Positions 47,085 to 53,040 of a stretch of 64,000 nucleotides of DNA are shown piece after piece (position 1 is the first letter of the stretch; each line of letters begins with the position of its first letter). The translations under genes were made by a program, and so were the position numbers. The stretch comes from Hymenobacter plasmatis. GTDB lineage: Bacteria; Bacteroidota; Bacteroidia; Cytophagales; Hymenobacteraceae. The notes under the pieces are model-generated. The model did not search any database. It worked only from the letters and a program-made list of their open reading frames with translations, and was not told where the DNA came from. The stretch is from contig NZ_JAJFAW010000001.1 of NCBI RefSeq assembly GCF_020711255.1, forward strand, positions 1 to 64,000, written 5' to 3'.

Positions 47085-49682
47085 CTAGCCCACCGCGGGC
47101 TGCGGCCGCGTATTCCGGTTGCTCGGCTGGCTTTGTGCATCCGTTGTAGGCTCCACGGGGGTGTCTTTGCGTCCGCGCTGACGCAGGCTCAGGCCGAACC
47201 CGAGGGCCATGAGCAGCGTGCCGCTCCACAGTAGGTTGATGAAGGGCTTCTCCATGGCCTTCAGGATGACATAGTCTTTCTGCGTGGTGCTCACGGCAAA
47301 CGTGAACTTGCCGGCCGTGGGGTCAATGGCGTTCAGGCTCAGGCGCACGCCGAGGTCTTCCACCTCGTCGGGCACGCGGCCCACCATGCGGTTGCGCACC
47401 ACAAACACCGGGTGGGCGTGGTACTGGCGCTTCTCACCCGACACAATCATGTCGGCCTGCAAGGCGAGGTCGCCTTTTTGCAGGTTCAAGCCGGCGGTTT
47501 CGTGGGCTGGCTCAATGGCCCGGAACACCGCGAAGTAGTCGTTCAGGAAAATCGTGTCGCCGACGCTTAGGATGTGCTCCTTGGCCTCGCTCCAGGTCTT
47601 TTCCTTGCGCGGGTCGAGCACGGAGCTGATGTGCGAGTAGATGTCGTGGCCCCAGAACTTCTTGATGGCCGGCGAAGCCAGCAGGCCGCCCATTTCCTCA
47701 TTCACCTGCGCCCGGGGGTACAGCACAAACTGCTCGCCCGACTTCTGGTCTTTGTAAGTGATGCGGTAGTAGGTGTTTTCGGGCAGGATGTCGAGCGTGT
47801 CGCCGGTCTTGTAGTAGGTCTTGCCTTCGCTGGCGATGGGCGCGCGGGCAATGGCGCGGTAGTCGTCGTCGGTGCGGAACAGGAACTGCTTATCCACGTA
47901 GCCGGGCACGCCGGGCACGTCAAAATACTGGCCGGTATAAGTCAGCTCGTAGCCGTGCATGGGCGCGGTCTCGTTGCGCCACAGCAGCACGTTGTCGCGA
48001 TTAAGCTCTTCCGTGAATTCCCGTGAGTAGAGCAGGCCCGAAACGTTGCGCGAAATGATTTTTGAGTAGCCCGACGAAGCCAGGATGCCCAGCAGCATCA
48101 GGGCAATGCCCAGGTGGGCCACCGCTCCGCCCGAGAGCCGCACCCCGCGCCGCAGCAGCGTGAAGATGGTGCCGAAATTGGCCAACACCCCAAACAAGCC
48201 TGCCAAGACGAGCACCACGTAAGCCGGCGAAATCGTGAGGCTATTGTAGCGCACCAGCAGCACCACCAGCGCCGTGCCCAACAGGGACAGCAGCGAGGGC
48301 GCGGTCAGGGAGTTGACCAGGGTGGTCTTGTCGTTGCGCTGCCACCACATGATTTGGGCCAGGCCGGAGAGCAGCGCCACAAACACGCCCATCCAGAGCT
48401 GCATCTTGGAGTAGTGGGCAATCTGGTCGGCGGGCAGGGCCACGTTGGTTTTGATGCCAATCAGGCCCATCAAGGCATTATAAACCGGGATGCTGGTGGT
48501 AAACAATACCTGGAAAGCACCCAGGCACAGCACCGTAGCACCCACAAATACCCACAGCTCGGGGTTGTAGGCGTTGAGCTCTTTCTCCGAAACCGGGATT
48601 TCCTTCCAGCGCCACACCAGCAATGCCACGGCCAGCACCGTAAACGCGCCCAGGTAAATCAGCAGCTGGCCCGACAAGCCCAGGTCCGTAAAGGAGTGCA
48701 CCGAGGCATTGCCCAATACACCGCTACGGGTGAGGAAGGTGGCGTACAAAATCAAAATAAACGTGGCCACCACCAGCGCAAACGAAGTGCGCAGGCCGAG
48801 GCGGCGCTTCTGCCAGAGCACCATGCCGTGCAACGAGGCCACCAGCACCAGCCAGGGGATGTACACGGCATTTTCTACCGGGTCCCAGTTCCAGTAGCCG
48901 CCGAAGTTCAGGGTTTCGTAGGCCCAGTAGGCGCCCATTACCACGCCCACGCCCAACACGCCTCCGCCGATGAGCGTCCACGGCAGCGCCGGTTTTACCC
49001 AGGCGGTCAGTTCTTTTTTCCAAAGGCCGGCAATGGCAAAGGCAAACGGCACCAGGGTGAGTGCAAAGCCCAGAAACAGCGTGGGCGGGTGAATCACCAT
49101 CCAGTAGTTCTGCAGCAGGGCATTGAGGCCGGTGCCGTCTTTGGGCACGAAGTCGGGGTTCATCTTAAACACCGGCAGGTCGGTGAGGAAGTCGCGCAGC
49201 AGGATAAACGGCGACGAGCCCACTTTCACGCCGCCCAGCACCACGCCCAGAATCATGCTCACCAGAAACAGCTGCACGCCGCTGAACACGGCCATCACTG
49301 GCGCCTCCCACTTGCGGTTGTAGCGGATGATGAATGCGCCCAGCACTACATGCCAGAAAATCCAGAGTAGGAAGCTGCCTTCCTGGCCTTCCCAGAAGCA
49401 GGAAATCATGTACTGCACCGGCAGGTGGTTGGAGCTGTGGCTCCAGGCATAGTAGTACTCGTAGCGGTGGGCGTGGATGATGTTGAACAAGCACACCACC
49501 ACCGACAGCACGGCCGCCCCGTGCACAAAAAAGGCGCCGCGCGCAATGCGCAGCCAGCTGGCGTCGGTTTCGCCCAAGGCCCGGCCCCGTGAGGCCTGGA
49601 AGTAACTGTAGGCTGCCACCAGCGCCGCCGCGAAGGCGATGATGACGCTGAGGTGGCCAATGTTTCCTATTAATAAGTTCAT
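47085..49682 (-). CDS. ccmF: Cytochrome c heme lyase CcmF
   Basis: 865 residues, about fifteen membrane segments. Belongs to the heme-handling (WWD) family; CcmF attaches heme to apocytochromes in System I. Seen: the WWD-type loop FGGYWNWDPVENAVYIPWL, conserved periplasmic His-containing loops and a large C-terminal periplasmic part (about 570-820). A Lys/Thr/Pro-rich tail ends the protein. It lies downstream of ccmB-E and an unknown gene. A perfect -7 box 18 bp upstream may give it its own promoter. Confidence 0.92.
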   Translation of the reverse strand: MNLLIGNIGHLSVIIAFAAALVAAYSYFQASRGRALGETDASWLRIARGAFFVHGAAVLSVVVCLFNIIHAHRYEYYYAWSHSSNHLPVQYMISCFWEGQEGSFLLWIFWHVVLGAFIIRYNRKWEAPVMAVFSGVQLFLVSMILGVVLGGVKVGSSPFILLRDFLTDLPVFKMNPDFVPKDGTGLNALLQNYWMVIHPPTLFLGFALTLVPFAFAIAGLWKKELTAWVKPALPWTLIGGGVLGVGVVMGAYWAYETLNFGGYWNWDPVENAVYIPWLVLVASLHGMVLWQKRRLGLRTSFALVVATFILILYATFLTRSGVLGNASVHSFTDLGLSGQLLIYLGAFTVLAVALLVWRWKEIPVSEKELNAYNPELWVFVGATVLCLGAFQVLFTTSIPVYNALMGLIGIKTNVALPADQIAHYSKMQLWMGVFVALLSGLAQIMWWQRNDKTTLVNSLTAPSLLSLLGTALVVLLVRYNSLTISPAYVVLVLAGLFGVLANFGTIFTLLRRGVRLSGGAVAHLGIALMLLGILASSGYSKIISRNVSGLLYSREFTEELNRDNVLLWRNETAPMHGYELTYTGQYFDVPGVPGYVDKQFLFRTDDDYRAIARAPIASEGKTYYKTGDTLDILPENTYYRITYKDQKSGEQFVLYPRAQVNEEMGGLLASPAIKKFWGHDIYSHISSVLDPRKEKTWSEAKEHILSVGDTIFLNDYFAVFRAIEPAHETAGLNLQKGDLALQADMIVSGEKRQYHAHPVFVVRNRMVGRVPDEVEDLGVRLSLNAIDPTAGKFTFAVSTTQKDYVILKAMEKPFINLLWSGTLLMALGFGLSLRQRGRKDTPVEPTTDAQSQPSNRNTRPQPAVG

Positions 49683-49699: not shown

Positions 49700-49707
49700 C
49701 AAATTTA
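49700..49707 (-). promoter_or_regulatory. -7 box before ccmF
   Basis: Minus-strand TAAATTTG, exact TAnnTTTG match, between the unknown gene stop and the ccmF start. No TTG at -33. Confidence 0.4.
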
Positions 49708-50862
49708 CCGCAGCGACGCTTGGGGTGGCAGGGCTAATAACAGCCGGTCGGTGAAAAAGTGACCGCGCGGCGGGTGACAAGTGATTTCGACCGCAATTTT
49801 TTCTATTCCGGCATCCTGCCACTTGCTGGTGGGCAGCCAGCCCTGGCGGTTGTTGGTGGGCTGGTGAACGAGTTGTTGAGCTAACAATACTTGCCCATTT
49901 GCAGGGTTGGAAATCACCACCGAGAGCTTGGCGTTGCGCGGGTACTTGCCCAGCGGGAGCACCACGTGCGGCACCTGCGGCGGCTGGTCCAGCAGCGGGT
50001 TGAGCTGGCTAAACGACACCCACTGTTGCCGCAGCAGCACCGGCGGCTGGCCATCGGGCCCGGCGTCGGCCACTATCTGATAGAGGTAGTAGCCGGGGCG
50101 GGGTAGGGTGTCGGTGGCCGCATAGGTGGCCGGCTGGCCGCCCAGGGTGTTGCGGGAGACCGGCACACTAGCCCGCTCGGTGCTGCGAAACTCCCGCAGC
50201 TCGCGGCGCAGTACCCGGCAGCGGGGCGATGCCGCTAGGGAGTCGGGCAGAGTCCATTCGAGGTGAATGACGCGGTTGGTGCCTGGCAGCGCCCCGGCCA
50301 GCGAAGGGGGCGGCACCGCCGGCACGCCCACTGCCCGCCCGCTCACTTGCAGCCGAAACTGGCAGAAGTCCTTCAGGTAGCCATCTACATTGAGCAAATA
50401 GCGCTGGCCGGCGCGAAGCGAATCCAGCGTTACAAACATGTCGTCCTGGGTGCCGAGCGAAGTGCAACTCAAGATGCGATAAGTGGCGGGTTGGCACGGG
50501 GTGCCGGTAAGTACTACTAATTGCACGCCGCGCACGTCGCGGCACTGCTGTCCGCCGATGTTCACGAAATAACGGCCCGAAACACGCGGCGTGAATTCAA
50601 ACCACTGGTCGTTGTGGTACTCGATGCATTTGCCGGTCAGGCGCTCGTCCACGCAGCTGCGCTGCACCGTGCAATCGGTGGTGTTGGAAGTGATGGTTGC
50701 TTCCGGCTGGAGCACCCTTCGGTTTTCGATGTTGTCGTTGGCTACCTGAGCCGCGGCCGGCAGGATTAGCCCAACAAGCAGCAGCAACTGGAAAAGCGCG
50801 CAGACTCGGAAGCGAAATATCGTTTCGGAAACCCTCCGCCTTATCAAGTGCGCGCCGACCAA
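49705..50862 (-). CDS. Exported Cys-containing protein in the ccm cluster
   Basis: 385 residues. A hydrophobic signal (CALFQLLLLVGLILPAAAQ) follows a basic N-terminus; start is TTG 3 bp past the ccmE stop, and no ATG is available. The first mature domain (about 45-180) has eight or more cysteines and the pattern of the PPC-like secreted sandwich (NDQWFEFTPRVSGRYFVNIG, FVTLDSLRAGQRYLLNVDG). A fibronectin-III-like domain follows. No heme, thioredoxin or peptidase motif is seen. Its position suggests co-transcription with ccmE; function is unknown. Confidence 0.65.
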   Translation of the reverse strand: MVGAHLIRRRVSETIFRFRVCALFQLLLLVGLILPAAAQVANDNIENRRVLQPEATITSNTTDCTVQRSCVDERLTGKCIEYHNDQWFEFTPRVSGRYFVNIGGQQCRDVRGVQLVVLTGTPCQPATYRILSCTSLGTQDDMFVTLDSLRAGQRYLLNVDGYLKDFCQFRLQVSGRAVGVPAVPPPSLAGALPGTNRVIHLEWTLPDSLAASPRCRVLRRELREFRSTERASVPVSRNTLGGQPATYAATDTLPRPGYYLYQIVADAGPDGQPPVLLRQQWVSFSQLNPLLDQPPQVPHVVLPLGKYPRNAKLSVVISNPANGQVLLAQQLVHQPTNNRQGWLPTSKWQDAGIEKIAVEITCHPPRGHFFTDRLLLALPPQASLR

Positions 50863-50865
50863 CTA

Positions 50866-51294
50866 TTACTTAGCCGAAGCCGTGGCCCCCTTCAAATCCT
50901 TCTTCACGTACTTGCTGGGGCACTTGAGCAGGATGTTATCGGCCATGAAAACCTGGCCCTTCATGCTGCCGGTAATCACGACCTGCTCGGACGCATCGAA
51001 GTCCTGGGGCTTGGGGTTGTTGTACACCACGCGTTGGGCCACGCGGTTGGTGTCTACCAGCGTGAAGGCGAAGTAGTTGGGGTCCGTCATGGGGTCATAT
51101 TCCAGCCCAATAGGGCGCTTCTGGCTGTCACGCAGGAGCTTGCCCACCACGTGCACTTTGGTGGTGTTGCCCTCGGCGGCCCGCTGCCGGGCCTCGCCGA
51201 AGCCCACGTACACGCTGGCATCGGCGGTGGTGCTGAGGATGATGGCGGCGGCCACCGCAATAATGGCCATGACGAAAATGTGCGACTTCTTCAT
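50866..51294 (-). CDS. ccmE: Cytochrome c maturation protein CcmE, Cys-type
   Basis: 142 residues: one N-terminal membrane anchor and a periplasmic OB-fold that receives heme from CcmC and passes it to CcmF. The OB strands (KVHVVGKLL, GQVFMADNILL) are standard. At the heme-attachment site the usual HxxxY is replaced by KCPSKY, so Cys125 takes the place of the His and Tyr129 is kept. Cys-type CcmE is known from some archaea and Desulfovibrio with an altered System I. Lies between ccmD and the unknown exported gene. Confidence 0.92.
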   Translation of the reverse strand: MKKSHIFVMAIIAVAAAIILSTTADASVYVGFGEARQRAAEGNTTKVHVVGKLLRDSQKRPIGLEYDPMTDPNYFAFTLVDTNRVAQRVVYNNPKPQDFDASEQVVITGSMKGQVFMADNILLKCPSKYVKKDLKGATASAK

Positions 51295-51388: not shown

Positions 51389-51631
51389 CTATTTTTTTAT
51401 TTCCTGCTCCAGTTTGCTCACTTTGCGGTCGAGCGATATCAGGTAGAATAACAAGCCAGCGACGATAATGACTACGGCGGCTACCACCACGTAGATTTTG
51501 CCGCTCGCCCGCAGGCCATCGGCCATTTCGGGGGCATCAGTCGCTTGGGCCAGAGCCGCGTGGGAAGTAAACAACAGGAACTGCAGCAGGCAAAGCGCGC
51601 CAGCGAGGCGAGCCAGGAGGTTATTTTTCAT
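51389..51631 (-). CDS. ccmD: CcmD-like small membrane protein
   Basis: 80 residues: a possible signal-like hydrophobic start (LCLLQFLLFTSHAALAQ), a second membrane helix (IYVVVAAVVIIVAGLLFYLI) and a charged tail LDRKVSKLEQEIKK. CcmD helps the CcmABC complex release loaded CcmE. The family is too short and variable for sequence alone, but overlap of 11 bp with ccmC and position before ccmE make the call firm. Confidence 0.78.
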   Translation of the reverse strand: MKNNLLARLAGALCLLQFLLFTSHAALAQATDAPEMADGLRASGKIYVVVAAVVIIVAGLLFYLISLDRKVSKLEQEIKK

Positions 51632-52286
51632 CGAGTTTCAATTGCAAAAACGCCAGCCGGCTGCTCACTTGGGTCATCCAGAAGGCAAAGAGAATCCAGC
51701 CGATAACGGCGGGGTAAAACACCATGCGCATGGTGCTGTCGAGGTCGTACTTGTTGAAGCCCGGGTTGCCGGTCTGGCCGGGGTGCAGGCTGTTGCCCGA
51801 AATGCGGGGCAGGATAAACAGCAGGGGAATGGCCGCCGCGAAGGCGAAAATATTGTAGATGGCCGACACGCGGGCCCGCTGCTGCTCGTCGCGAAAGGAG
51901 CCGCGCAGCACCAGGTAGGCCCCGTAGATGAGCAGGGCCACGGCGGCGGCGTTTAGGCGCGGGTCGGGCGTCCACCAGGCGCCCCAGGTGTACTTGGCCC
52001 ACAGGCTGCCGGTGGCCAGGCCCAGGATGCCCAGCACGATGCCGCTCTTGGCCGCTTCGTGGCTCAGAATGTCGAGCCGGGCCGACGGATTGCGCAGGTA
52101 CTGCATGGAGCGGAATACCGACGTGCCCAGAATTACCATCATGGCAAACCACATGGGCACGTGGAAATACAGGTTGCGAATGCTCTCATTCACAATGGCC
52201 AGCCGCGGCACGGGCAGCAGGAAGCCCGCCACCGCTGAATACAGCAGCAGAATGACGGTCAGGACTTTCCACCAGGTAAATTTCAT
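51621..52286 (-). CDS. ccmC: Heme exporter protein CcmC
   Basis: 221 residues from the ATG at 52,286, six membrane segments. The WWD domain is present as WGAWWTPDPRLNAAA, and His residues in NLYFHVPMWFAMMVI are the expected external heme ligands. CcmC loads heme on CcmE. Two bases separate it from ccmB; it overlaps ccmD by 11 bp. An upstream in-frame alternative start is 15 bp away. Confidence 0.92.
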   Translation of the reverse strand: MKFTWWKVLTVILLLYSAVAGFLLPVPRLAIVNESIRNLYFHVPMWFAMMVILGTSVFRSMQYLRNPSARLDILSHEAAKSGIVLGILGLATGSLWAKYTWGAWWTPDPRLNAAAVALLIYGAYLVLRGSFRDEQQRARVSAIYNIFAFAAAIPLLFILPRISGNSLHPGQTGNPGFNKYDLDSTMRMVFYPAVIGWILFAFWMTQVSSRLAFLQLKLDEK

Positions 52287-52288
52287 AA

Positions 52289-52963
52289 TTAACCCCTCCA
52301 CAAATACGGAAACAACAAATAAGACACGGCCCCCACCAGCATGTTCAGGGCCAGCAGCGTGAGCAGCGACTGCTGGCTCACGCTATGGTCGAGGCCGTCG
52401 AGGGCGTTTTTGCTCACTTTGATGAGCAGCAGCAGCATGGGCACCATTATCGGGAAGCCCAGCACGGCCATGAGCGTAGCCCCGTTGCCGCCAGCTTTGG
52501 CCGCAATGCCCGACACCAGCGTAAGTGTGGTGGCAAACCCCACCGCCCCCAGCAGCAGGTTGCCCACAAACAGCGGCGCATCCTGAATGGGATTGCCCAG
52601 AAACACCGTGTAGAGGAACAAGCCCAGCAGCGCCACTCCGCCCAGCAGCAGCGCGTTGTAGAGCATCTTGGCCAGAATAATGGCCTGGGGCCGCACCAGC
52701 GTATAGTAGTAGAGGCGCTGGCCGGGGCTTTCCTGCATGAAGCCCTTGGCCACGGCATTGATAGCCGCAAACAACAGGATAACCCAGAGCAGCGCATTCC
52801 AGGCCGGCGCCGGAGGCTGCCCGCCGCGCAAACTAAAACTCAGAAAGCACACAAACACCGTGCTGCCCACGTACAGCAACAGTCCCCCCAGGGCCGCGCG
52901 CTGCCGCCATTCGAGGCGGAAGTCTTTGGCTAGCAAGGTGGAAATTTCGTGGAGCAGGGGCAC
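52289..52963 (-). CDS. ccmB: Heme exporter protein CcmB
   Basis: 224 residues from GTG 52,963, six membrane segments. Permease of the CcmABC complex: LHEISTLLAKDFRLEWRQR is the usual N-terminus, followed by GLLLYVGSTVFVCFLSF and a conserved AAINAVAKGFMQE loop. The frame is open to a TTG at 53,035, but a perfect -7 box lies inside that extension, so the GTG is preferred. CcmA, its ATPase, is not encoded in this window. Confidence 0.9.
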   Translation of the reverse strand: MPLLHEISTLLAKDFRLEWRQRAALGGLLLYVGSTVFVCFLSFSLRGGQPPAPAWNALLWVILLFAAINAVAKGFMQESPGQRLYYYTLVRPQAIILAKMLYNALLLGGVALLGLFLYTVFLGNPIQDAPLFVGNLLLGAVGFATTLTLVSGIAAKAGGNGATLMAVLGFPIMVPMLLLLIKVSKNALDGLDHSVSQQSLLTLLALNMLVGAVSYLLFPYLWRG

Positions 52964-52987
52964 GGGCAGCGTTTCAGTTTCGGGCCG

Positions 52988-52995
52988 CAAAGATA
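52988..52995 (-). promoter_or_regulatory. -7 box at the head of the ccm cluster
   Basis: Minus-strand TATCTTTG, exact TAnnTTTG match, 24 bp before the ccmB GTG. No TTG at -33. Confidence 0.45.
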
Positions 52996-53040
52996 CGACC
53001 GAACCCGCCCGGAACGGATGAAAAACCAAGGGCAAAAAAG

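Follow-up and report, generated by a model that had tools for sequence, protein, structure and literature searches.

In the textbook view of cytochrome c maturation, CcmE is the carrier of heme to cytochromes c and its heme-binding residue is a histidine. A variant pathway, System I*, in which a cysteine replaces this histidine, has been described in archaea, Desulfovibrio and other bacteria in a 2011 review, whose section on the variant lists as bearers delta-Proteobacteria, chloroflexi and firmicutes, with no mention of Bacteroidota (PMC3601427). According to the same section, E. coli carrying the Ccm operon of Desulfovibrio produces cytochrome c in the absence of CcmH and CcmG, the Cys-type CcmE of this operon binds heme covalently, and CcmH is found in about one third of the bearers of the Cys type. 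CPSKY is given there as the majority motif of variant CcmE, with 25 of 36 genomes (printed as "System I", which is read here as System I*) (PMC3601427). Similarly, the C120A mutation in the CxxxY motif of Methanosarcina acetivorans CcmE is reported to abolish its heme staining (PMC9084895). For D. vulgaris CcmE, the heme binding reported is non-covalent (PMC3884852). A literature search retrieved no title on CcmE from Bacteroidota; most subscription papers lie outside such a search, which thus does not establish absence in print.

The window considered here, a stretch of 64,000 nucleotides from Hymenobacter plasmatis (C11:1-64000), belongs to a genome of 5.13 Mb in 72 contigs, rated 100% complete (G000). 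The original prediction had assigned positions 50866-51294 to a CcmE with a cysteine in the heme-binding position and the tyrosine kept, and both points are confirmed by a PF03100 match (48.8 bits, cut-off 24.6) and by the translation. The gene lies on the minus strand, with its ATG at 51294 and its stop codon ending at 50866, and encodes 142 amino acids. The predicted heme-binding motif, C125-P-S-K-Y129, is encoded at 50908-50922 on the same strand (codons 50922 to 50908), with cysteine in the place of the heme histidine and the tyrosine retained as in System I*. Weak matches to five NCBIfam CcmE models fall well short of the respective cut-offs (30.3 bits at best, for a cut-off of 126), so that the name CcmE rests on the Pfam family, the motif, the gene context and the fold. 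By analogy with the described variants, Hymenobacter CcmE is expected to hold heme by cysteine instead of the textbook histidine.

This gene is part of a run on the minus strand, transcribed in the order ccmB, ccmC, ccmD, ccmE, a gene for a 385-residue protein, and ccmF. CcmB (52289-53035, 248 residues) is assigned by PF03379 (37.7 bits), with no NCBIfam match, and CcmC (51621-52301, 226 residues) by PF01578 (72.9 bits), with 74.1 bits from TIGR01191, whose cut-off is 186. The following gene (51389-51631, 80 residues) encodes a member of the alternative CcmD family (PF20077, 74 bits; TIGR04391, 29.4 bits for a cut-off of 24). CcmF (47085-49682, 865 residues) matches PF01578 and PF16327 over cut-off and the NCBIfam CcmF/NrfE models below cut-off. 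As ccmB overlaps ccmC, ccmC overlaps ccmD, and the gaps that follow are short (94 bases between ccmD and ccmE, 3 between ccmE and the 385-residue gene, 22 between the latter and ccmF), these genes probably form an operon. The 385-residue protein (49705-50862), located between ccmE and ccmF, has no Pfam or NCBIfam match. Of the 77 named loci, 38 contain a relative, and a search of the other 79 phylum loci, including two from the same genus, gave none; nothing marks the protein as a Ccm component, despite its place inside the gene run. In CcmC, the tryptophan-rich core reads WGAWWTPDPRL in the window and varies among loci; we take it to depart from the usual CcmC motif. The core of CcmF, GG(Y/F/W)WxWDPVE, is nearly constant among loci.

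Very probably, this CcmE is an ordinary System I* heme chaperone serving the organism's own c-type cytochromes, with CcmA provided from a separate lpxA-ccmA locus. In such a pathway, CcmABCD would load heme onto CcmE, where it would presumably be held by a thioether to Cys125 and liganded by Tyr129. Transfer to CXXCH apocytochromes would then fall to CcmF, no CcmH being recognisable. Candidate substrates are encoded in the genome: eleven ORFs match the cytochrome c family PF13442, ten of them over cut-off, and all eleven contain at least one CXXCH motif (six in one ORF). Covalent attachment of heme at Cys125 and its subsequent transfer are inferred by analogy with the published Desulfovibrio and Methanosarcina work.

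The fold of the protein is consistent with its assignment to CcmE. The AlphaFold2 model (mean pLDDT 75.9) shows an OB fold and is unreliable at residues 126-142, just past Cys125, where pLDDT is below 50. Foldseek retrieved as its best PDB match CcmE from the CcmABCDE complex (8ce8_E, E 4.8e-04), along with the CcmE structures 1j6q, 1lm0, 1sr3 and 2kct. The second-ranked match, a nuclear-pore chain from D. discoideum, is read as another OB fold, and the Nup160 chain 9hcj, matched by profile and by Foldseek, as an OB-fold resemblance. At the sequence level, a profile built from 46 CcmE of the phylum had as its best PDB match D. vulgaris CcmE (2KCT, E 2.5e-06), with KCP aligned on KCP, in agreement with the proposed kinship to the CxxxY type of Desulfovibrio. 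The same profile matched E. coli CcmE (1SR3) with E 1.5e-05, KHDENY being placed under KCPSKY. With a narrower profile, based on 33 close relatives, no PDB entry was matched at E 0.01.

This best match among solved structures by sequence is also the protein for which non-covalent heme has been reported (PMC3884852). On this ground, CcmE could hold heme by the Cys125 thiolate and hand it over to CcmF without a thioether, the remainder of the pathway operating as in System I*. We consider such non-covalent handling unlikely, since Desulfovibrio Cys-type CcmE is described as binding heme covalently in E. coli (PMC3601427) and heme-stained M. acetivorans CcmE is reported to depend on its cysteine (PMC9084895).

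A genome with System I* is expected to have no His-type CcmE. A six-frame PF03100 search of the whole genome returned a single match, the ccmE of the window, and thus no second CcmE, whether of the His type or not. Among named genomes, a CcmE scan gave 77 loci with 63-95% identity, all from Hymenobacter except two from Pontibacter, two from Rufibacter and one from Sabulibacter. All 76 CcmE recovered from these loci contain CPSKY, the CcmE of the remaining locus not having been recovered by the script. Hymenobacter is placed in Bacteroidota by NCBI, and among 296 genomes drawn evenly from this phylum, PF03100 detected CcmE in 193. This count is a lower bound, as the model missed a clear CcmE in one genome (G290), found with a closer protein (E 1.2e-44) and also bearing CPSKY; the same caution applies to every count in the phylum that relies on PF03100 only. 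The heme motif could be read in all 193, with 191 CPSKY (two of which are partial readings, from G309, over two frames, and from G157, running off the contig end), two CPSRY and no histidine. With G290 included, the cysteine is therefore present in 194 of 194 CcmE of the sample. In the alignment of 46 phylum members, all of which match PF03100, Cys125, Pro126, Ser127 and Tyr129 are invariant. Because CPSKY is found in 76 of the 77 named loci and CPSKY or CPSRY in all 194 CcmE of the phylum sample, Cys125 does not result from a sequencing error. The rarity implied by the original prediction does not hold: Cys-type CcmE is a published variant, ordinary for this phylum and the only form in the part of it that was sampled.

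Short CcmE-like paralogues which stop just before the heme residue were observed in several loci and left out of the motif count: five in L071 (G100), L072 (G331), L094 (9112-9528), L112 (9129-9509) and L148 (901-1281), and a sixth in L084 (9913-10266). Those in L094, L112, L148 and L084 directly follow or overlap a normal CPSKY ccmE, and such proteins may be heme-free partners or remnants. In G309 (L162), two overlapping frames each encode part of CcmE, which could reflect a frameshift or an assembly error.

These surveys bear directly on the idea that the cysteine marks a decayed or idiosyncratic site, the true chaperone being a second, His-type CcmE encoded elsewhere. No point in its favor was found, and it is contradicted by 1) the single PF03100 match in the genome (a model which can miss CcmE, as in G290), 2) the absence of the His type among the 194 CcmE of the phylum sample and 3) the location of the motif-less paralogues, which belong to other genomes and stop short of the heme position. 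It deserves hardly any credence.

A System I* chaperone also calls for its partners. As originally noted, ccmA, ccmG and ccmH are all missing from the window: it contains no ABC-ATPase matched by the CcmA models and no DsbE or CcmH match from the searches of the genome. In seven loci, all from phylum members outside the class, a motif scan located an ATPase directly before ccmB; unlike these loci, the window has no ATPase in this position, and a ccmA inside the cluster was rejected. Across the genome, the NCBIfam ccmA model (TIGR01189) gave 58 ABC-ATPase matches, none over cut-off. A profile built from the seven ccmB-adjacent ATPases ranked one ATPase of the genome first, with 146.5 bits against 124.0 for the next. 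This protein is encoded by a 210-residue ORF (G000:C71:150811-151440) that immediately follows lpxA on the downstream side. Its co-occurrence with CcmE was followed in 71 genomes of the same class, 34 with a PF03100 CcmE and 37 without, the latter taken from those reported by the CcmE and ResB surveys and including G290, which proved to have CcmE. The candidate was found (E 8.8e-31 or better) in 35 of 35 genomes with CcmE and in none of the 36 without, six of which yielded matches of lower significance (E 6.5e-23 to 7.2e-21). In four of the matched stretches, the aligned range is interrupted by one stop codon, and the match of G329 is partial. The candidate is adjoined by lpxA in 29 of the 30 same-class loci returned, the exception, L284, having no lpxA within the fetched stretch. 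Homology, co-occurrence and synteny thus point to a likely CcmA orthologue encoded beside lpxA, at a distance from the remaining ccm genes, and run counter to the suggestion that ccmA has been lost. With CcmB, CcmC and CcmF assigned by Pfam and CcmA by these three lines of evidence, below the TIGR01189 cut-off, the System I* gene set is present.

For the two other proteins, the situation differs. The CcmH family PF03918 has no match in this genome and 38 relatives (0 of 39), and in the phylum draw it was matched in seven of 296 genomes, over cut-off in two. Accordingly, the proposal of an altered System I lacking some Ccm proteins stands for CcmH and is not supported for CcmA. Concerning CcmG, the DsbE model TIGR00385 gave nine thioredoxin-like matches in the genome, all of them under the NCBIfam cut-off (best, 50.9 bits against 123.15), and two of the four inspected are similar WCPPC thioredoxin-like proteins (L309, L310). 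As sequence alone cannot tell whether any of them has the role of CcmG, this protein is not called absent.

Within the phylum, ResB-family (PF05140) matches, indicative of System II, occur in 119 of the 296 genomes, most of them without CcmE, although some of these matches are weak and located close to ccmE, in ORFs of the size of ccmF. In all, 293 genomes have at least one of the two, CcmE or a ResB-family match, and 20 have both. This distribution could be taken to suggest that Ccm is incomplete in Hymenobacter and that System II (CcsBA/ResB) matures its c-type cytochromes, a view which is nevertheless extremely improbable here since the genome has no PF05140 match and contains a ccmA candidate outside the window.

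Residues 43-540 of the Hymenobacter CcmF match the 6zmq CcmF (E 2.3e-42), which is also the sole structure retrieved by fold at E 0.001 or below with a model of poor quality (mean pLDDT 63.1). Beyond the part aligned with 6zmq, the model predicts a large all-beta C-terminal domain at about residues 570-800. Among 64 sampled CcmF ORFs longer than 600 residues, 63 have 743-958 residues and one 677, the 6zmq entry having 660; 13 further loci gave only shorter matches. A ResB-like origin of this domain was considered after PF05140 matches appeared in CcmF-sized ORFs located 2-3 kb from ccmE (G071, 30.6 bits; G166; G260; G306). It is not claimed, as the reverse tests gave no support: searched against 12 ResB-family ORFs, a profile built on the C-terminal region of CcmF as sampled in the phylum reached E 0.048 at best, and a profile-profile comparison of this region with eight ResB-family ORFs gave a probability of 2.4%. 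Nothing joining CcmF, ResB and Bacteroidetes was retrieved by the literature search. One might imagine, though it is rather doubtful, that in much of the phylum, which would use Cys-type CcmE without CcmH, the beta domain of CcmF took over the apocytochrome handling of CcmH/CcmI, CcmF alone being the cytochrome c synthetase.

Collectively, these data correct the reading of the Hymenobacter genes as a rare or partial system: in the phylum as sampled, no form other than the Cys type was found, and the ATPase missing from the cluster is probably encoded elsewhere. As Bacteroidota are not named as bearers in the review section cited above, additional models for the formation and release of the Cys-heme adduct without CcmH could be found among members of this phylum.

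Compared with the classical System I of E. coli (CcmABCDEFGH), Hymenobacter has CcmB, CcmC, CcmE, CcmF and a CcmD-like protein, a CcmA candidate encoded elsewhere and a CcmE with a matching fold, while it differs by the cysteine replacing the heme-site histidine, by CcmH, which was not found, and by the distribution of its genes over two loci. With the CcmABCEF system of M. acetivorans, as reported (PMC9084895), it shares a CxxxY CcmE and the lack of CcmH, whereas it has a CcmD of the alternative family and a CcmF made of one chain instead of two. Relative to the System I* of Desulfovibrio (D. desulfuricans; D. vulgaris, 2KCT), ccmA is located away from the cluster, beside lpxA, and CcmG, reported absent in Desulfovibrio, might or might not be represented among nine weak DsbE-model matches below cut-off. 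Both systems have in common a cysteine in place of the heme histidine, a tyrosine four residues on and the lack of CcmH, and the CPSKY of Hymenobacter is the majority motif of variant CcmE.
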